From the NCBI GenBank assembly GCA_017347465.1, contig AP021858.1, forward strand, positions 124,001 to 188,000: a stretch of 64,000 nucleotides of DNA. The letters are read 5' to 3'. Position numbers and translations under genes: made by a program. Positions 48,972 through 59,725 of the stretch are shown here, in pieces (within the stretch, counting starts at the first letter, position 1; each line of letters opens with the position of its first letter). Source of the stretch: Candidatus Nitrosymbiomonas proteolyticus (GTDB taxonomy: Bacteria > Armatimonadota > Fimbriimonadia > Fimbriimonadales > Fimbriimonadaceae). The notes beneath the pieces were generated by a model that was not told the DNA's origin, ran no database searches, and saw nothing but the letters and a program-made list of their open reading frames with translations.

Positions 48972-49811
48972 TTACTTGCGTCGGCGTCGGATCAGAGCCG
49001 CTGCGCCAAGGCCAAGCGCCACCATCGTTGCGGGCTCAGGTACTGGGCTGCCGTAGACGATGAACGGGAAGTCCTGCACCACAGCGCCAGCCGTGGGAGG
49101 GTTGCCCGGATCTTCAGCGTCTTGCCAACTCGTTGCGGCTTGCAGGAACTGCCGCCCGTTGAACCCGGCGATCCCGCGGCCCGAGGCTACGAGCGCAGGA
49201 GCCCAGGGGCCGCTGCTCAGCGAGCCGCCGGTCTGCCAATCGAGCCAGTACGTGCCCGCCGTCAAGACCACTCCGCCAAGGTTTGCGCTGTTGCGATAAA
49301 CGGGTCTCGTGGTGTCCGGCGGGATGCCGAGCCCCGCAGGGTGCGTCGAACTCGCTGTTCGATAGATTCCTGCAAACGTGGAGCTTGAGAGCACATTCGT
49401 GGTGGTGTCGCCCCAGACGACCGAGCTACCGGAGTCGCCAGGCCGGCCGTTCCAGATTCGGAGGCTCAGGAAGTTCATCGACGAACCAGTCGCGCTGCCG
49501 CCAGTCTGATAGGCGAAGAAATCGATCGAATCGACGGTCCAGAAGGCATCACCGATGGCGAAGTCGTCGGCAACGCGGTTCCCAGCGGACTGCTGGTGCC
49601 CAAACCCAAGGATCGCGTTGGCGTTGTCGCCATCGTTCGCGAGCTCGCTCCATTGGGTTCCCGAAGGCGCGCCCGTGCCGTCACCGGCGGTCGCTCCAGT
49701 TTCGAGACCGATCGTCGACAGCCCCCAGTTCTCGCCGTTGCTGTAGAGCTGGATCGAAAAAGCGCTGCCTGCAAATACCACCGACAAACAAACAAGTCCA
49801 AACTTTCGCAT
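48972..49811 (-). CDS. PEP-CTERM sorting-domain surface protein
   Basis: A 279-residue exported protein. It has a signal peptide (MRKFGLVCLSVVFAGSAFS), a Gly/Ser/Thr-rich beta-type body and a PEP-CTERM tail VPEPATMVALGLGAAALIRRRRK (signal motif, membrane segment, basic end). This tail directs processing by an exosortase and surface or matrix display. The exosortase is not in the window. ATG 49811 has TTGGAGAA upstream; the frame opens earlier at 49841. The body is unlike the three PEP-CTERM proteins at 57-60 kb. Confidence 0.9.
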   Translation of the reverse strand: MRKFGLVCLSVVFAGSAFSIQLYSNGENWGLSTIGLETGATAGDGTGAPSGTQWSELANDGDNANAILGFGHQQSAGNRVADDFAIGDAFWTVDSIDFFAYQTGGSATGSSMNFLSLRIWNGRPGDSGSSVVWGDTTTNVLSSSTFAGIYRTASSTHPAGLGIPPDTTRPVYRNSANLGGVVLTAGTYWLDWQTGGSLSSGPWAPALVASGRGIAGFNGRQFLQAATSWQDAEDPGNPPTAGAVVQDFPFIVYGSPVPEPATMVALGLGAAALIRRRRK

Positions 49812-50105
49812 AGAGTTCTCCAAGAATTGGCTGTAATTCACCCGATCGCCATTCAGGCGTTAGACGCAAGTCTGAACGCGAACGTGCATTGATTGTATTG
49901 AAAAAAACAGCCATTGCGGCCTTCCATGGGCAGGTTCCGGTATTTTTGCTGGTCACAATCCGAGGAAATCCAGAGAGAATCTGGCAATTGTCCGTGGAGC
50001 GGCTTGGCAAGGGGGAAAGTCGGGCGCGTTTGGTGGGGCGGGTCGCGCGGCGGGCAAACAATAAAAGACTTCTAAAACGCCCGAAAAGTCGCACGAAAAA
50101 TCCCC

Positions 50106-50697: not shown

Positions 50698-53600
50698 ATG
50701 AAGATTCAACGTCACTTTACGACTCAAGGCCTCGACCCCTACGAGGGGATCGAGTTCGTTTCGCGCAAGAGCGAGATCAAGAACCCCGATGGCTCCACCG
50801 TGTTCCTGATGGAAGACATCAAGGTTCCGAAGTCGTGGTCGCAGGTTGCGACGGATATCCTCGCGCAGAAGTACTTCCGCAAGGCCGGAGTTCCCCGGGC
50901 GGACGGCACTTCCGGCTCAGAGACCGACTTGCGCCAGGTCTGCCATCGGCTGGCTGGTTGTTGGAAGTTTTGGGGGGAGAAGTATAACTATTTCGATTCT
51001 CCCGAGGACGCCAACGCGTTCTATGACGAGATCGTACACATGTTGGCCCGGCAGGTTGCCGCTCCGAACAGCCCGCAGTGGTTCAACACCGGCTTGCACT
51101 TCGCGTATGGCATCGAAGGCACCCCGCAGGGACACTATTATGTTGACCCTGAGAGTGGAAAGCTGAACAAAAGCAAAAATGCCTACGAGCGACCCCAACC
51201 TCACGCGTGCTTCATTCTGAGCGTCACCGACGACTTGGTGAACCCGGGAGGCATCATGGACCTCTGGACGCGCGAGGCCCGGATTTTCAAGTACGGCTCA
51301 GGAGTCGGAACCAACTTCAGCAAGCTCCGCGGGGAGAACGAGTCGCTTTCTGGCGGAGGCAAATCGAGCGGGCTTATGAGCTTCTTGCGCGTGGGCGACC
51401 GCTCGGCCGGCGCCATCAAGTCCGGTGGAACGACTCGAAGGGCCGCGAAGATGGTGTGCCTCGACGTCGATCACCCCGATATCGAGAACTTCATCAACTG
51501 GAAGGTCAGGGAGGAACAGAAAGTCGCCTCGCTAGTCGCGGGCTCGCAGATTCATCAGCGACGCCTCAACGCGATCATGAGATCGTGCCACCTGTTTGCG
51601 GCCTCGGGCGCCGGCAATCCAGACGACGCGTTCGATCCACGAAGGAACCGCGAGCTTCGAAAAGAGGTCGCCGAGGCAAAGGCGGCGGGAGTGTCCCTCA
51701 ACTACATTCAACGAGTGATCCAACTTGCAAAGCAGGGCTTCACGGGCGTCGAGTTTCCCACCTACGACACGGGCTACGAAAGTGAAGCCTATATGACGGT
51801 TGCCGGCCAGAACTCAAACAATTCAGTCCGAATTCCGAACGAGTTCTTTCGGGCGGTAGATGGCGACGGGCAGTGGGAGTTGGTCAGGCGCACCGACCGC
51901 AAGGTGGCCAAGTCGGTCCGGGCGAAAGACCTTTGGGATCAGGTCTGCTATGCGGCGTGGTCGTGCGCCGATCCCGGCATTCAATACGATTCGACCATCA
52001 ACGAGTGGCACACGTGCCCTGCGGACGGCAGGATCAACGCCAGCAACCCGTGCTCAGAATATATGTTCCTCGACGACACGGCCTGCAACCTCGCGTCGAT
52101 CAACCTTATTCGGTTTTACGACCCGGAGACGGGACAGTTTGACGTCGACGGATATCGTCACGCGATTCGGCTATGGACCCTCGTGCTCGAAATCAGCGTG
52201 CTCATGGCCCAATTTCCCAGCCCGGAGATCGCTAAGCTGAGTTACGAGTTTCGCACGTTGGGGCTGGGCTACGCGAACCTCGGCGCGTTGCTGATGCAAA
52301 TGGGGATCCCGTACGACGGGCCTCAAGGAAGGGCGATTTGTGGAGCTTTGACTTCGATTCTTGGAGGCGAGTCGTACGCCGTGAGCGCGGAGATGGCGGT
52401 CGAGCTTGGGCCGTTTTCTGGGTACGCCCGGAACCGAGACGCGATGCTCCGGGTCATTCGCAACCATCGGCGAGCCGCCTACAACGCGCCGTCGAGCCAA
52501 TATGAGGGCCTCTCCGTCCTTCCGGTCGGGATCGACCCTGACGAGTGCCCGACGGACATGCTCAAGGCAGCCCGCGAGGCGTGGGACCGTGCCTCCTCGT
52601 TGGGCGAAGCGCATGGGTTCCGCAACGCCCAGGTGACCGTGCTCGCTCCGACTGGAACCATCGGGCTCTTGATGGATTGCGACACCACCGGCATCGAGCC
52701 CGATTTCGCGCTCGTCAAGTTCAAGAAGCTGGCGGGAGGGGGCTACTTCAAGATCATCAACCAATCCATCCCGCCCGCGCTGAGAAGGCTCGGTTACGGC
52801 GAGGAGCAGATCGAAGATATCGTTGCTTATTGCGTCGGACACAAGACGCTGCGCGGCGCTCCCCATGTCAACCCCGAATCGCTCCAAGCCAAGGGCTTCA
52901 CGGCCGAAGCTCTCGCCAAAATCGAAGGCGCGCTCGAAAACGCGTTTGATCTCTCGTTCGCATTCAACAAGTTCACCTTGGGCGAGGATTTCTGCAGGCA
53001 GTACTTGGGCTTTTCAGACAGCCAACTCAACGACTTTGGGTTCGATATGCTGGCGGCGCTCGGTTTCACCCGCCCTCAAATCGAGGAGGCCAGCGAATAC
53101 GTTTGCGGAGCGATGACGATCGAGGGCGCCCCTCATCTGAAGCTCGAGCACTATCCGGTCTTCGACTGCGCCAACAAGTGTGGGAAGCGGGGGGCGCGCT
53201 GTATTTCGGCGGAAGGGCACATTCGCGCGATGGCAGCCGCCCAACCCTTCCTTTCGGGCGCGATCAGCAAGACGATCAACCTTCCTTCGGACGCGACGGT
53301 GAGCGACATTGGGGAGGCGTATCGGCTCTCGTGGGAGCTCGGCCTGAAGGCGAACGCCCTGTATCGGGACGGCTCCAAGCTGAGCCAGCCCCTCAACTCC
53401 AGTTCGGACGAGGCCACGGCCGCGCTGCTCGAGGCCGCCATGGGCGACGACGACGCGAGCGAGGACGCGATCGCTCAGGCGGCGCAGAAGTTGGTGTACC
53501 GCTACATCGCCAGGCGGCGGCTGCTTCCCACGCGGCGCAAGGGCTACACCCAAAAAGCGCTCATCGGCGGACACAAGGTCTACCTGAGAACGGGCGAGTT

Positions 53601-54342
53601 CGAAGACGGATCGCTCGGCGAGATATTCATCGACATGCACCGCGAAGGCGCAGCTTTCCGAAGCTTGATGAACTGCTTTGCAATTGCGATTTCGCTCGGG
53701 CTGCAGTACGGCGTACCGCTCGAAGAGTTCGTCGAGGCGTTCGTTTTCACGCGGTTCGAGCCGAGCGGAATTGTCCAGGGACACAACAATATCAAGATGT
53801 CGACCTCGGTGATCGACTACATCTTCCGCGAGCTTGCGATGTCGTATATGGGCCGGTACGACCTGGTGCAGGTCAAGCCCGAAGACCTTCGTCACGATGC
53901 GATGGGCAACCCTTCGGACATCCCTGAGTTCGAGGACGAAGCCGAGGGCGAGGAGTTCGAGGGGACAGCGCCGGGTTACGCCCACGACGACCATGCGGGC
54001 CGCGGCTTTGTCGCCGACGTGGCACCTCCCGAAGACACCTCGCAATCGGTGTTGCCCTTCGACAACGGTTCTTCGAAGAGCGTAGGCTCGCCGACATGGC
54101 AGGTGGAACAGGCCGCCAAGTCGAAGCTGCGGCCATCTCCCAAGGCCGTGGTCGGGGGAGAGCAGCCAGCTTCCGCAAGACCCGCTCCGATCCGTTCCGA
54201 TGTCCTCAGCGCCCAGATTCGGGAAGCGCGACTCAAGGGCTATGAGGGCGACCCTTGCGGCAACTGCGGGGCGTTCACGATGGTCCGCAACGGCGTGTGC
54301 CTCAAGTGCGACACGTGCGGCGAAACGAGCGGTTGTTCCTAG
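50698..54342 (+). CDS. nrdJ: Vitamin B12-dependent (class II) ribonucleotide reductase
   Basis: A 1214-residue adenosylcobalamin-dependent enzyme that makes deoxyribonucleotides with or without oxygen. Typical stretches are [33 protein letters not shown], the active-site region [41 protein letters not shown] and a C-terminal zinc ribbon with redox cysteines ([20 protein letters not shown], then CGETSGC). No N-terminal ATP-cone is seen. GGGAGGGAG precedes the ATG, 18 bp after nrdR. No other reductase class is in the window. Confidence 0.97.
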
Positions 54343-54507
54343 GTAGGATCGGACCCCTGGGATAACACCCGCTTTCGACCCTCGAAGGACACTCCAGTCA
54401 GAGTCTAGGGCCTTTCCCGCGAACTCGGGACGTCGAAATGTCTCCCCGCATTGAGACGTCGCAACCTCGTTGTAGAATGAATCAGGAAGGAGGGTCCTGA
54501 AGGAGGC

Positions 54508-56160
54508 GTGAACCCGACAGAAGTTAGAATCGAACTGTTCGATGGCCTGCGTGTGGTTTCGCAGGGCCGAAAGCTTGAGTTTACGCGCAGGCAAACGGGC
54601 CTCCTGCTCGCGCATCTCGGATTGGGCCTAGGCCGGTCGCTGAGCCGGGAGGAGTTGATCTGCCTACTCTGGCCCGATGACGACGCGGCTACCTCGAGGC
54701 AGCGACTTCGGCAGCGGCTCCATGTGCTGAAATCGACCCTCAATCGGTGGGTCCCCGGAGCGGGTGCGGTCGTTGTCTCCGATGCCGAGGAAGTCCTCCT
54801 CGATTCTGCAGTGTGCTCTTCGGATTGGGGGGACTTCGCCGAGAGTATGAGAAAGGGCCGGAGCGCTCTCGAACCGGATCAAGCAAGAGAGAGTTTCCGC
54901 AACGCTGTGGGCCTCGCCCAGGGTCCGCTGCTTCGGGGCTTCTATCACGATAGCGTTGCGTCAGCTCGAATGCACGCGGACGATGAACTCCAAGTGGCGC
55001 TGAATTGGCTGGTGAAAGACGCCCTGTCGAGCAATGAACTGGATCACGTCGCCGAAGACTGCCGCAGGCTCCTCGCATTGGATGAGCTGAGCGAGCAGAG
55101 CCACCTGCTCTCCATGCGCGCTTGGGGGCGTTTGGGCCGCTCAAGCGCCGTTGAGCGTCAATGCGCCCAATGGAAGCGTCTTGCGAAGGACGATCTCGGC
55201 GTCGAACCCTCGCTTGAATTCGTCGAAGGCTACGAGCTTGCGCTGAGCGAGAGTCGGCAGGCTCCCAAACTGAGCAAGCCCAGCCCCCTTGTGAAGACCG
55301 AGTCGTTGCTGCCGAAGCCAGTCTCCGATCTCGTCCCTTTGACCGCATCTCAACCGACATCGAGGAGGAGGCCTCACTCGGGCTGGCTCGCCCTGTCGGT
55401 TCTGCTCATCTTGAGCATCGCCGTCGCCGTCTTGCTGGCGAACTCTCGAAGCGGAACTCCGGTTCCCTCCGCGTCGAAAGTGGACTTTGGGAAGGGTTGG
55501 ACGAGCGATCGGGACCTCTCGGTGCATTTCGGGCAGGCATACGGAAAGGGCTTCAAGGGACCCAGGATTGAAAACGGCGTGTTGGTCCTTTCGGACGGCT
55601 TCACGGGGATTTCATCAAGCGTCTGGTGGCGTCAGCGTGTCAACACCCGTGTATTTACTTCGAAGTTCAGGTTCCGTGCCAAGAATCCGCCGGGGAATCC
55701 GGGGGGACTTGCCGATGGTTTCGCTTTTGTTCTCCAAGACGACGGGCTGGATGCCTTGGGCGCCGGGGGGATGGACCTCGGCTGTGGCGGCATCGTGCAG
55801 AGTGCAGCCGTATTCTTTGACTTTTATGCTCCCGAAGCCGCCCACGGCCCCAAGGGAATCTACTGGGGCGTGAGCCTGAATGGCGCAAGCCCGATCGCCG
55901 GCAGGTTTGCCGACGTGGACTTTGAGATCGACGCCGAGTTTGAGGTTACGGTGACCTACGACGGCGAGCATACGGTTCAGATGCATATGAGGAACCTCAA
56001 GAGCCAGAAGTCGGACACCATCGAACTGAAGCGGAGGATCAATTCCCTGTTTCCCGAGGGGTTGGCGTTTGTGGGTTTCACGGCCGGAACCGGAATGGGT
56101 TGGTCCCGTGTGGAAATCCTCGATTGGGAGTTCATCTCGGGCCAGCTACCCCAGAAATGA
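54508..56160 (+). CDS. Membrane-tethered SARP/BTAD-type regulator with external L-type lectin domain
   Basis: A 550-residue protein with an unusual order of domains. Residues 1-95 are a winged-helix OmpR/SARP-type DNA-binding domain (FTRRQTGLLLAHLGLG; EELICLLWPDDDAATSRQRLRQRLHVLK). Residues 105-245 are a BTAD-like helical domain (AEDCRRLLALDELSEQSHLL). RRRPH (287-291) precedes one membrane helix (about 293-311), giving an N-in orientation. Residues 325-545 resemble an L-type lectin (GLADGFAFVLQDDGLDALGAGG; IVQSAAVFFDFYAPE). This suggests a one-step receptor and transcription factor sensing a surface glycan. The start is GTG; AGGAGG ends one base before it, with a second GGAAGGAGG further up. 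Confidence 0.82.
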   Translation: MNPTEVRIELFDGLRVVSQGRKLEFTRRQTGLLLAHLGLGLGRSLSREELICLLWPDDDAATSRQRLRQRLHVLKSTLNRWVPGAGAVVVSDAEEVLLDSAVCSSDWGDFAESMRKGRSALEPDQARESFRNAVGLAQGPLLRGFYHDSVASARMHADDELQVALNWLVKDALSSNELDHVAEDCRRLLALDELSEQSHLLSMRAWGRLGRSSAVERQCAQWKRLAKDDLGVEPSLEFVEGYELALSESRQAPKLSKPSPLVKTESLLPKPVSDLVPLTASQPTSRRRPHSGWLALSVLLILSIAVAVLLANSRSGTPVPSASKVDFGKGWTSDRDLSVHFGQAYGKGFKGPRIENGVLVLSDGFTGISSSVWWRQRVNTRVFTSKFRFRAKNPPGNPGGLADGFAFVLQDDGLDALGAGGMDLGCGGIVQSAAVFFDFYAPEAAHGPKGIYWGVSLNGASPIAGRFADVDFEIDAEFEVTVTYDGEHTVQMHMRNLKSQKSDTIELKRRINSLFPEGLAFVGFTAGTGMGWSRVEILDWEFISGQLPQK

Positions 56161-56342
56161 CCCCGGCGCTCCGACGTTGGCGGGCCATTTCGAAGCGAAT
56201 TCGCTCCGATTTCGAAGTGTGACGGCAGAATCACGCCTACGTAACGACCGAGTTCCTATCCTATCCCCCGTCGCTCGGCCCAGCGCACCGGTTTCCCGGA
56301 TTTCGGAAAGCCTTCGGAGCCGCCGTGCGACGGGGGGACACG

Positions 56343-56966
56343 GTGAACAAGCATCCGATTTGCAAGGGGCCAGAAAGCCCAGGGAGGGGTTGGGAGAGAG
56401 AACCTCTGGGTCGGCAACGAATCGAGGCCGACGTCTTGGTGCGGCGATACGGCAACGACGTGGCCAACTACGTTCTCGGCTTTCGGCGAGTTCGATACGA
56501 GGACGCTGAAGAGATCGCGGCCGATACGCTTCTGACCGCCTTGGAACTTGCGCCGACTCTCCGTCCTTCGGCGTGCGTGCGGTCGTGGCTCTTTGCGATC
56601 GCGAGGCTCCGGATCGCAGACCATTTTCGGAAGGCGCTCGCCGCCAAGCGCCCCCAAGAGAGAAACCGCATCGCGAGTCTGGAGGAGATCGAAGGGGGGC
56701 GGGACGGGCCGCTTGCCCATGACCCGGTGCCTGAAGTCGTTGAGCGTCTTCATCATGAGTCGGTGGTTCGCGCGGCCCTTGCCGAGTTGAACGGCCTTGA
56801 GCGGAGGGCCCTGATCGGCCACTACGTCGCGGGGAAGAGCATTCACGAACTATCTCGGGAGTTCGGGAAGAGCCCCAAGGCGGTGGAATGTCTCTTGTCG
56901 AGGGCGAAGGCGAGAGCAAGGAGCGCGGTCGCCGAAGCCGACTCGCCTTGCGGCAGTTTCGACTGA
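56343..56966 (+). CDS. ECF-type sigma factor
   Basis: A 207-residue sigma-70-family protein. Region 2 is VLVRRYGNDVANYVLGFRRV followed by YEDAEEIAADTLLTALEL and SWLFAIARLRIADHFRKAL. Region 4 is LAELNGLERRALIGHYVAGKS followed by the helix-turn-helix IHELSREFGKSPKAVECLLSRAKAR. There is no visible anti-sigma partner. GTG 56343 with a GGGGGG run five bases upstream is preferred; GTG 56325 is also in frame. It follows the lectin-receptor regulator by 182 bp and precedes three PEP-CTERM genes, suggesting a shared regulatory circuit. Confidence 0.87.
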   Translation: MNKHPICKGPESPGRGWEREPLGRQRIEADVLVRRYGNDVANYVLGFRRVRYEDAEEIAADTLLTALELAPTLRPSACVRSWLFAIARLRIADHFRKALAAKRPQERNRIASLEEIEGGRDGPLAHDPVPEVVERLHHESVVRAALAELNGLERRALIGHYVAGKSIHELSREFGKSPKAVECLLSRAKARARSAVAEADSPCGSFD

Positions 56967-57035: not shown

Positions 57036-57713
57036 CTAACCTCGCGCTTTTCGCCTCTTCTTTGCCCCAGCCGCCAGAACTGACGCGACCGAGAGAGCCA
57101 TCAACGTACCGGGCTCAGGCACTGCGGCGTACAACTCGATCTCTTCGATGCACACCGCTTGGCCGTAAGCCGTGACGTCGATCTTGACGTCCGTGACTCC
57201 GACCTGGGGAGCGAACGAATAGAGGTGCCGCAGCGAGTCCGTCGACGTGTAGTCTTGGAGTTCGACGCTGCCGATCACCTGCCACGTCTTGCCGGGGTCG
57301 AAGAACGGGAGCGCATCCGTCGAGACTTTGACGATGTACAGACCTGAGGTGCGCTCGTTCCAGGTCAAGGAACTGTCGCGCCCCCATGCGATTCGGTCGA
57401 TCGTTGCGGGCGTAGGCAGGCTGATGCCCGCCGTGGCGGTTTGCGTGGTTGGAATCCAGCTCGCTCCCGAGGAGCCCACCCCGTCCCCGAAGTTGATGTT
57501 GCCATTGTTTCCGTACCATCCGTCGTTGAGTCCCGAGATCGCGTGGAACGGGTAACCCGAAATCACGCTGCTGGCATGGGGTTGCGCCCCAAGAGTGGCC
57601 AGAGCTACGTTTCCGGCTTGGGGCACGCCCCCGATTTCGATGAGGTTCAGTTGAGCCATCGTAAGGGGCGTAACGAACAGCGCCGCGCCCCAGATGAGAA
57701 CGATTCGTGTCAT
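57036..57713 (-). CDS. PEP-CTERM surface protein, discoidin-like body
   Basis: A 225-residue exported protein: signal peptide (MTRIVLIWGAALFVTPLTMAQ), a beta-rich body and the tail VPEPGTLMALSVASVLAAGAKKRRK. The body (AISGLNDGWYGNNG; ISLPTPATIDRIAWGRDSS; VTDVKIDVTAYGQAVCIEEIELY) has the strand pattern of F5/8 type C (discoidin) domains, which bind sugars or lipids. AAAGGAG lies eight bases before the ATG. It is convergent with the ECF sigma gene. Confidence 0.88.
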   Translation of the reverse strand: MTRIVLIWGAALFVTPLTMAQLNLIEIGGVPQAGNVALATLGAQPHASSVISGYPFHAISGLNDGWYGNNGNINFGDGVGSSGASWIPTTQTATAGISLPTPATIDRIAWGRDSSLTWNERTSGLYIVKVSTDALPFFDPGKTWQVIGSVELQDYTSTDSLRHLYSFAPQVGVTDVKIDVTAYGQAVCIEEIELYAAVPEPGTLMALSVASVLAAGAKKRRKARG

Positions 57714-57848: not shown

Positions 57849-58469
57849 TTAGCGGCGACGGCTCCTCCTTCGGACGAGGGCGATCGCCCCCAGAGCCAAA
57901 GTTCCGAGTGTCGCCGGCTCCGGAACCGTCGAAAACTTGAAGTTCGGGCCGGTATAGGTCGTGTAGGAGCCCATAGAGTTTCCCCCGTCGGAGACTCCTC
58001 CCCAGCCGTTGTAACGAGCTCCATTCGCCAGAACGGTGATCTCAGGCGCGTACGTTTCCGTGGCGTGCAGGTTCGTAGTGTGAGCGTCAATTCCGTTGTG
58101 GCCCCAGATGATGTAGTCCCTGCCCGTGATGAGTTGCACAGGGGTCACGGCCTTGTACCGAAAGAACCCATCGAGCGTTTCGACAGTCCCAGCACTAAGA
58201 TCTGCGTAGGCAACCAACACGTCAGTGTCCCACTCGAAGACTCCAACCTCGACGCTGGACGCGAATCCGTCCATTTCCAGGTCAAAATTGCCCAGATCGG
58301 TCAGCCAGATATCTTGGTTCGGCACGAACCGCCAGCCAAGCTTTCCAGTCCATAAATGCCAAGATGTGACGGCCGTCATCTGGATGGCTGCCGACGAAGC
58401 GAGGGCGGGCGCGGCAATCGCCGCCGCTACCCCAATCGATGCCAAGGCCCGAAGAGTGATTGATTTCAT
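57849..58469 (-). CDS. PEP-CTERM surface protein
   Basis: A 206-residue exported protein: signal peptide (MKSITLRALASIGVAAAIAAPALA), a body containing WHLWTGKLGWRFVPNQDIWLTDLG and RDYIIWGHNGIDAHT, and the tail VPEPATLGTLALGAIALVRRRSRR. The body has the look of a small beta sandwich with no named family recognised. The open frame runs to 58676, but AAGGAG ahead of ATG 58469 and the signal peptide decide the start. It lies 135 bp upstream of the other leftward PEP-CTERM gene, so the two may share a transcript. Confidence 0.87.
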   Translation of the reverse strand: MKSITLRALASIGVAAAIAAPALASSAAIQMTAVTSWHLWTGKLGWRFVPNQDIWLTDLGNFDLEMDGFASSVEVGVFEWDTDVLVAYADLSAGTVETLDGFFRYKAVTPVQLITGRDYIIWGHNGIDAHTTNLHATETYAPEITVLANGARYNGWGGVSDGGNSMGSYTTYTGPNFKFSTVPEPATLGTLALGAIALVRRRSRRR

Positions 58470-58810
58470 TTGTTGTTGCTCCTTTTCAGTCATTGGGTGC
58501 GCCCCATTTGGGCGCCCATCAAGGGAAGTCGCAAGAACGCCACAAAACCCCTCACCGGCCCTCAAAAATGCTGCCCCAGAGGATGATTCCGCCCCCCTCG
58601 CTGCGGGCTGGTGGCATCGGCCGGACCCGCTGGGAGCCCCTTTTCCAACGCCGAAGTATTGCGGATTCTGTCGCAAGCCCAGGTCGCTTTCCTATACTTT
58701 ACAGCTTTGAATACTAACTTTCCGTCACACAATGGACGCTATCGGACAAGTACGTATTAGGCGAACCACTTCTCGGTTCCATCTTTTCAATCACGAAAAA
58801 GGAGTGTGAA
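58470..58810. other. 341-bp divergent region between two PEP-CTERM genes
   Basis: An imperfect palindrome (GCGCCCCATTTGGGCGCC core, near 58498-58515) lies close to the leftward gene and could be an operator or an RNA hairpin. Further right are T/A-rich boxes, for example TATACT near 58694, but no confident -35/-10 pair. No gene is seen. Confidence 0.5.
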
Positions 58811-59725
58811 ATGACGAATCATAAGTCATATGGCCGCGCGTTTGCGTGGCGCACGATGATGTTGGCCTTTTCGGCCACCTCACTGGCGAGCCTCGCGCTT
58901 GCGGATCCGTTTGTCGTCGATTCCGATATGTTCGGGTACGACATTACCGTTACTCGATATGGCTCACTGGCTGACGCTATGGCGCAGCAGAACGCCGTAT
59001 CTGGGCCTCACACCGTGCTCGGCGCCGACCCCTCCGATCCGAGGGGAGGAATGCGAGACGTGTGGATGGGATTCTATAAGGATAGGCCCTCGTATTACAA
59101 CAACTTCGCCGGTTTGATGACCGCGTGGTATTTCACGCTCGATCCCAACCAAGGCGACGGGTGGGGTAACCCCAACAATACGAATACCGGCTTCGTTCAG
59201 GTCTACGACAACATGGCGGATTCGGTCGTATCCTGGACCGGCGGCTGGAGTACCTTAGCTCCCGGCGTCGGTGACGGAAGCAGTTTCACCTTCACCGTCA
59301 CCGGCGGGATGCACGCCGATCCCGCCGAGTACCCGAGGCTTTGGGCAGCTCCTGAAATCGGGGGCGCGGGCGAAATCACGAAGGGCATCTTCCATGAATA
59401 CTACGTGAGCGCGACCGTTACCGGCCTGACCGCCAACGACGACGGCTTCGGGTGGTATGAGTCCATGGACGCTCCCGGAGGCATCTCCGGCGGGTTCACC
59501 GGCATCTTCGAGAATCAGAGCACGACGCGGCCTGAACTCAACGGGTTCTATTACTTCAGCGGTGCGCTGAACATGGACAACTGGGCGGTTGCGAACGGAG
59601 GCACTTGGGGCGGCGGGGTGTACAGTCCGTACGCCTACTTCGGCGCGGTGCCGGAGCCTGGCAGCATGGCTGCGCTCGGTCTCGGGATGCTTGCGCTCAA
59701 GTTGCGCCGGCGCTCCCGACGCTGA
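58811..59725 (+). CDS. PEP-CTERM surface protein
   Basis: A 304-residue exported protein: signal region (RTMMLAFSATSLASLALA), a Gly/Asn/Trp-rich body and the tail VPEPGSMAALGLGMLALKLRRRSRR. The body includes GYDITVTRYGSLADAM and YPRLWAAPEIGGAGEI; no named domain was recognised. A strong AAAAAGGAG lies before the ATG. It is divergent from the second leftward PEP-CTERM gene and is followed by a terminator, so it is monocistronic. Confidence 0.88.
   Translation: MTNHKSYGRAFAWRTMMLAFSATSLASLALADPFVVDSDMFGYDITVTRYGSLADAMAQQNAVSGPHTVLGADPSDPRGGMRDVWMGFYKDRPSYYNNFAGLMTAWYFTLDPNQGDGWGNPNNTNTGFVQVYDNMADSVVSWTGGWSTLAPGVGDGSSFTFTVTGGMHADPAEYPRLWAAPEIGGAGEITKGIFHEYYVSATVTGLTANDDGFGWYESMDAPGGISGGFTGIFENQSTTRPELNGFYYFSGALNMDNWAVANGGTWGGGVYSPYAYFGAVPEPGSMAALGLGMLALKLRRRSRR

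Follow-up and report, generated by a model that had tools for sequence, protein, structure and literature searches.

A candidate membrane-anchored AfsR/SARP-type regulator with a divergent L-type-lectin-fold sensor in Candidatus Nitrosymbiomonas proteolyticus

The window, that is, the whole 64,000-nucleotide stretch of DNA analysed here, contains on its + strand a gene (54508..56160, GTG start) for a protein of 550 aa in which a winged helix and a BTAD domain (wHTH-BTAD) are followed by a linker, a transmembrane (TM) helix and an L-type-lectin fold. The protein is probably a one-component transmembrane transcription regulator, with an AfsR/SARP-type wHTH-BTAD part in the cytoplasm, a single helix in the membrane and a divergent lectin-fold sensor in the periplasm. 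A more specific reading, which we put forward tentatively, is that a periplasmic glycan is sensed directly by a lectin fold devoid of the metal pair, in which case the protein would be a one-protein glycan-to-DNA switch and one of an undescribed modular group of membrane-anchored BTAD regulators.

The gene and its integrity

The frame is open throughout between 54508 and 56160 on the + strand, exactly as it had been given in an earlier note on this DNA, and the coordinates of the intact 550-aa ORF were thus correct. In none of 1000 shuffles was a frame of 550 codons kept open, which together with the codon comparison with a sister genome (see below) rules out a chance ORF. The same intact frame is present in a second complete genome, CP054189.1, and a frame error or assembly artefact fusing two genes could therefore be ruled out as well. 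A Shine-Dalgarno-like sequence, AGGAAGGAGGG, lies 13 bp upstream from the GTG start, and a weak candidate for a sigma70-like promoter (TTGAGA-16-TAGAAT, 54451..54478, + strand) is found approximately 30 bp before the start codon, where the search returned one such candidate against 0.4 expected. With a GC content of 0.60 and a GC3 of 0.71 the gene resembles its neighbours, so a foreign origin was rejected on the basis of composition, and an antiphage defence protein was likewise rejected since PADLOC gives no match.

The N-terminal half is of the AfsR/SARP type

The winged helix spans approximately residues 5-100 (54520..54807, + strand) and is of the OmpR-like kind. It is matched only weakly by the Pfam family Trans_reg_C (E 0.025 at residues 22-77, hmmscan), while AfsR was found by a sequence search of the PDB (phmmer) with 1.3e-5 over residues 14-235, and a profile search with the N-terminal halves of relatives gave AfsR at 4e-16 and EmbR at 3e-13. 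These matches cover the winged helix, which makes it a recognisable DNA-binding domain, and W55-P56, R47 and R64 in it are conserved with the relatives. Next comes the BTAD domain (PF03704, residues 106-238, 54823..55221, + strand), which exceeds the Pfam cut-off with an E value of 1e-12, and an OmpR-like winged helix at the N-terminus followed by BTAD is what characterizes the SARP/AfsR type. The AlphaFold2 (AF2) model of residues 1-250 is poor (pLDDT 45), and the Foldseek matches under 0.001 were three in number, all of them AfsR. The winged-helix and BTAD assignment for residues 1-245 that had been read from the bare sequence is therefore borne out by both the Pfam and the AfsR profile match.

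Features of the large SARP proteins are absent: Pfam and NCBIfam gave no NB-ARC and no TPR family match outside BTAD, and the protein has 550 aa only. The same two collections gave no anti-sigma match, and the N-terminal sigma-binding domain of RsgI is absent. As far as the sequence tells, residues 1-245 constitute a SARP-like module that is complete, and from this architecture it is a fair inference that the wHTH-BTAD part acts on DNA directly and without a phosphorelay.

One membrane helix and the expected topology

Between the DNA-binding half and the membrane lies a linker (residues 246-292, 55243..55383, + strand) that by composition is basic and rich in Pro and Ser, with Arg286-288 near its end. 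The hydropathy profile supports one membrane segment only, at residues 293-311 (55384..55440, + strand), with a Kyte-Doolittle mean of 2.78 over 19 residues, no charges inside and Arg-Arg-Arg just before it. This agrees with the membrane-spanning helix proposed earlier and places a transmembrane region in the same chain as the DNA-binding domain. Since Arg286-288 directly precede the helix, the positive-inside rule makes an N-in/C-out orientation likely, and there is good support for a cytoplasmic DNA-binding half and a periplasmic lectin fold.

The earlier note had the protein sense a surface or environmental sugar, and this had to be corrected. Omp85/BamA is encoded in the genome (E 2e-36), the cell should therefore be diderm, and the C-terminal half should face the periplasm and not the cell surface. 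The sensor would then meet saccharides that cross the outer membrane or belong to the envelope, and not the outer surface itself.

The C-terminal half has the fold of L-type lectins

Residues from about 325 to 544 (55480..56139, + strand) form the putative sensor domain, and the likeness to L-type lectins appears in Pfam, in the PDB by sequence, in profile searches and in the predicted fold. With hmmscan the Pfam family Lectin_L-type_dom (PF18483) matched residues 355-530 with E 2.5e-9, or 1.4e-10 when the domain was searched alone, at a score of 37.7 bits that lies below the curated cut-off of 78.3 bits. When the PDB was searched by sequence (phmmer), legume lectins (phytohaemagglutinins) were found at 2e-6 over residues 363-544, and a profile made from the relatives returned a long list of legume lectins from 1e-34 to 1e-18. 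A single-sequence AF2 model of residues 324-550, of low confidence (pLDDT 55, pTM 0.58), shows the expected strands, and in a Foldseek search of this model against the PDB the best 50 matches were legume lectins without exception (best E 3e-9, TM about 0.6). Sequence homology and jelly-roll fold thus both place the domain among the L-type lectins, although with a Pfam score under the curated cut-off. The domain searches and structure prediction that the earlier note had called for uphold its lectin proposal for residues 325-545, and the lack of lectin similarity that it had named as refuting this proposal is not the case.

The metal site is degenerate and the ligand may be of either kind

In legume-type lectins a Ca2+ and a Mn2+ ion are held by Glu, Asp, Asn, Asp, and His, and sugar binding depends on these metals (PMC5008829). 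With the list of ligands taken from the same source, we compared the site across 34 aligned lectin domains of Armatimonadota. In the corresponding stretch of the window protein (residues 434-454, 55807..55869, + strand) these positions read F436, D438, P442, G447, and Y452, so that Asp438 is the one canonical ligand out of five that is kept. Because four of the five are lost, Ca2+-dependent glycan binding, as stated for L-type lectins in the earlier note, is not expected here. Among the sugar-contact residues the canonical Asp403 in the loop A motif Ala-Asp-Gly (402-404, 55711..55719, + strand), which is invariant in alignment A1, and Gly420-421 in loop B are kept, the Asn of loop C is lost, and Tyr440 is found near the aromatic position.

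The lectin clade nearest to the window protein consists of lectin domains from other Armatimonadota proteins, several of them large and multidomain, and is supported by values of 99/97, but the branch of the window protein is long. In this clade Lys mostly takes the place of the Glu and Thr that of the His, with Asp and Asn unchanged. Judging from the alignment, the lectin family tolerates change at the metal site and the window protein has gone furthest. The closest lectin domain by path is found at the end of a 1119-aa ORF (L137, G157:C1:392000-399500, - strand), which is a secreted multidomain protein with a repeat region and fn3-like parts.

From these residues both metal-free sugar binding and a non-sugar ligand seem possible, and a saccharide is what we lean towards, weakly, as the ligand of the lectin fold. 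It is conceivable, at perhaps a one-in-four level of belief, that the protein is the same membrane regulator with its lectin fold repurposed for a non-sugar ligand such as a nucleotide, a peptide, a protein partner or an envelope component. There is precedent for this in DORN1, an L-type lectin receptor kinase of plants that has changed loops and binds ATP (PMC5008829), and the loss of four metal ligands, including the loop-C Asn, in a fold that in legume lectins needs its metals for sugar points in the same direction. Against it, Asp403 and Gly420-421 are retained, and it is sugar-contact residues of this type that are missing from DORN1; moreover, with Glu to Lys and His to Thr altered in the nearest clade, the loss of metal ligands may be ordinary bacterial variation. 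DORN1 shares with the window protein an L-type lectin sensor, one membrane helix, a cytoplasmic effector and the lesson that the ligand need not be a sugar. It differs in its kinase effector and in keeping the metal ligands while having lost the sugar-contact residues, roughly the reverse of what we find here.

How the signal might reach the promoter

In the mechanism that we propose for the membrane regulator, the AfsR/SARP-type winged helix and BTAD in the cytoplasm would act directly on a promoter, the single helix would cross the inner membrane, and the divergent L-type-lectin-fold domain would sense in the periplasm. The ligand, probably a saccharide or a saccharide-containing oligomer, imported or of the envelope, would be held at the loop face of the lectin without the classical Ca2+/Mn2+ pair. 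Its binding would alter how the BTAD halves dimerise or are placed and in this way affect the recruitment of RNA polymerase, on the pattern of ToxR/CadC-like regulators. Such a regulator may have originated when a lectin module was put into the sensor slot of a BTAD-TM-X regulator, where X is a beta-propeller, TPR or TolB-like part in the relatives.

Transcription control from the membrane has precedent in the transmembrane transcription regulators (TTRs; ToxR, CadC, TcpP), a recognised and common class with over 50,000 predicted members (PMC10269533); BTAD, SARP, and Armatimonadota are not named in the main text of that paper. The window protein has in common with the TTRs a cytoplasmic DNA-binding domain, a single helix and an extracytoplasmic sensor in one polypeptide with no phosphorelay, and differs in the BTAD that follows the winged helix and in the lectin-fold sensor. 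In ToxR and CadC the winged helix directly precedes the TM helix and the periplasmic sensor, with no BTAD between, so the resemblance is one of working principle only. Compared with the SARP/AfsR-EmbR proteins, the winged helix and BTAD are shared (with the AfsR match over residues 14-235), whereas NB-ARC/ATPase, TPR or FHA parts are missing and the protein is membrane-anchored and not soluble. Regulators of the SARP/AfsR type bind to direct repeats in a promoter and recruit RNA polymerase.

Signalling by ligand-triggered proteolysis, which we regard as improbable, would involve a periplasmic cleavage after which an M50 (RseP-like) protease frees a soluble wHTH-BTAD part, as in RsgI/RseA-type pathways. 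RsgI anti-sigma factors with C-terminal carbohydrate-binding modules do signal through cleavage within the TM helix (PMC12203970, PMC4711584), residues 1-245 would be a complete module once released from behind the long linker, and the genome encodes M50 proteases; such proteases are, however, found in 14 of 14 control genomes, so their presence is uninformative, the protein offers no evidence of a cleavage site, and ToxR/CadC-like regulators act without release. The RsgI anti-sigma-I factors of Clostridium thermocellum (PMC4711584) resemble the window protein in being single-pass proteins with a C-terminal carbohydrate-binding fold outside and transcription control in the cytoplasm, but RsgI holds a sigma factor whereas the cytoplasmic part of the window protein is itself a DNA-binding regulator. 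We favour, weakly, dimer geometry over proteolysis as the way in which the signal would pass.

Few sugar-binding folds have been studied as well as that of the L-type lectins, which in plants signal through kinases. If the proposal is true, a lectin wired to a DNA-binding regulator would connect a saccharide to a promoter by the shortest path and provide a convenient two-part module in which to test signalling by lectin folds.

Distribution of the fused form and comparison with the sister genome

The fused architecture was found in one species only, i.e. in 2 genomes, when 113 genomes of the order and 291 of the phylum Armatimonadota were scanned. One scan of the phylum scored four candidates per genome, and a second listed the lectin matches; BTAD was absent from the inspected loci of these matches, which comprised all but about twenty weaker ones. 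No fused homologue was present in the plasmids or viral contigs searched, and a scan of 84,980 genomes, of a type that detects close relatives only, returned just the sister genome and one unfused BTAD protein. Within the part of the literature covered, nothing relevant on lectin-BTAD or LysM-BTAD membrane regulators was found. The view that no family with this domain order had been described thus held in both the 291-genome homologue search and the literature searched. The restriction to one species counts against the proposed mechanism, as it leaves the joint working of the two halves without support from deeper comparison.

The second copy (L033) is intact and 98% identical, and is carried by CP054189.1, a complete MAG of Chthonomonadaceae bacterium H1_ARM1; this MAG is apparently genome G094, from the same species, in our order and phylum scans. 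Between the window and this genome 27 codons have changed synonymously and 10 nonsynonymously, corresponding to a dN/dS of about 0.12 for the whole gene and 0.15 for the DNA-binding half, with zero amino-acid changes in linker and helix. In the lectin half just two codons differ, and the near-identical stretch extends into the next gene. Unusual purifying selection on the lectin half was considered and rejected, since the quiet stretch runs past the end of the gene and is best explained as a recombination patch; divergent blocks alternate with near-identical ones along the whole locus, so that the small number of changes in the lectin half says nothing about selection on the sensor. Inside nrdJ (50698-54342), encoding a ribonucleotide reductase, positions 53000-53250 of the window hold 59 substitutions in 250 bp, mostly synonymous, against the 97% identical sister genome, which looks like a segment recombined from a diverged relative.

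An inert fusion of a BTAD regulator with the lectin domain of a secreted protein, kept by drift and with no specific sensing role, would fit the restriction to one species and the long branches of both halves, but we consider it the least likely reading, given the intact frame in both genomes, the excess of synonymous over nonsynonymous codon changes, the unchanged linker and helix, the strong membrane helix between the parts, which is flanked by the right charges, and a long branch that argues for an old and not a fresh lectin half.

Other membrane-anchored BTAD proteins in the phylum

Many BTAD proteins of Armatimonadota are AfsR-like with an ATPase, and some carry a membrane helix at the same place as the window protein, followed by other parts. 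An SBBP beta-propeller follows the helix in three proteins according to Pfam (L121:1193-3604, L150:819-3467, L133:1028-3481) and in five more by likeness (L113, L128, L129, L131, L132). In L107:67-2487 and L126 the extracytoplasmic part is of TPR type with a stretch labelled TolB-like by eye, and in L122:829-2928, L091:1162-3135 and L016 it is TPR-like. These proteins (L121, L133, L150, L107, L122, L091) share with the window protein the order of BTAD, helix and extracytoplasmic part and a like position of the helix; they differ in having an SBBP beta-propeller, TPR or TolB-like sensor, and the BTAD halves are not mutual closest relatives. Inspection by eye also showed a BTAD protein with a C-terminal response-regulator-like receiver instead (L147, 407-aa ORF, - strand) and one with a TIR-like and an ATPase part (L085, 783-aa ORF, + strand).

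In a tree of 86 BTAD halves a long branch sets the window protein apart. Parsimony requires the TM state to change seven times on this tree, at least three of these changes being forced by well-supported branches, and the membrane form therefore seems to have arisen repeatedly. The statement in the earlier note that SARP/BTAD proteins are normally soluble was in this respect incomplete, both for the several membrane-anchored BTAD proteins with other sensors in the phylum and for the TTRs as a known, common class (PMC10269533). Membrane-bound BTAD regulators are not unique to the window protein. The lectin seems to be one of several fillings of the sensor slot in BTAD-TM-X regulators, and membrane-anchored BTAD proteins with exchangeable sensors apparently constitute an undescribed modular class in Armatimonadota. 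The window protein points to a wider and apparently unnamed set of such regulators in a poorly studied phylum.

Gene neighbourhood and possible targets

An ECF-like sigma factor gene (56325..56966, + strand; TIGR02937 E 1.1e-16, Sigma70_r2, r4_2) starts 164 bp downstream from the regulator gene and is a possible partner of it. Four PEP-CTERM proteins are encoded around the gene within about 11 kb (48972-49841, 57036-57713 and 57849-58676 on the - strand, 58811-59725 on the + strand), and the genome has 75 PEP-CTERM matches, most of them above cut-off. For this reason the PEP-CTERM/envelope polysaccharide programme is the first place where targets should be sought. A conserved operon as a clue to the targets was rejected: in five relatives the surroundings of uvrB contain no homologue of nrdJ, of the ECF gene or of the regulator gene, and with no conserved neighbourhood in these five the context says little.

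Lectin genes beside BTAD genes in relatives

A gene for a PEP-CTERM L-type lectin is adjacent to one for a BTAD-TPR protein in three relatives. The lectin gene is followed on the same strand by that of a soluble BTAD-TPR protein with a gap of 73 bp in G017 (L185:4496-7109) and of 48 bp in G099 (L186:4342-6951), and the two genes are convergent in G025 (L187:4541-7330). The adjacency occurs in three of the seven genomes with that lectin clade, in three genera, and is missing from the four others; assuming roughly 10 BTAD genes per 3300 genes, where the gene numbers are rough, the probability of this by chance is about 8e-6. The pairs in G017 and G099 are probably one event; their BTAD proteins are 38.5% identical over the whole length. 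In the BTAD tree the G017 protein is not close to that of the window. These pairs suggest that in this family lectin-type proteins function together with BTAD regulators, a link independent of the fusion, and they point to a repeated connection between L-type lectins and BTAD regulators in Armatimonadota. The lectin gene in G025 (L187:4541-5270) is split over two overlapping frames, i.e. by a frameshift or an assembly error.
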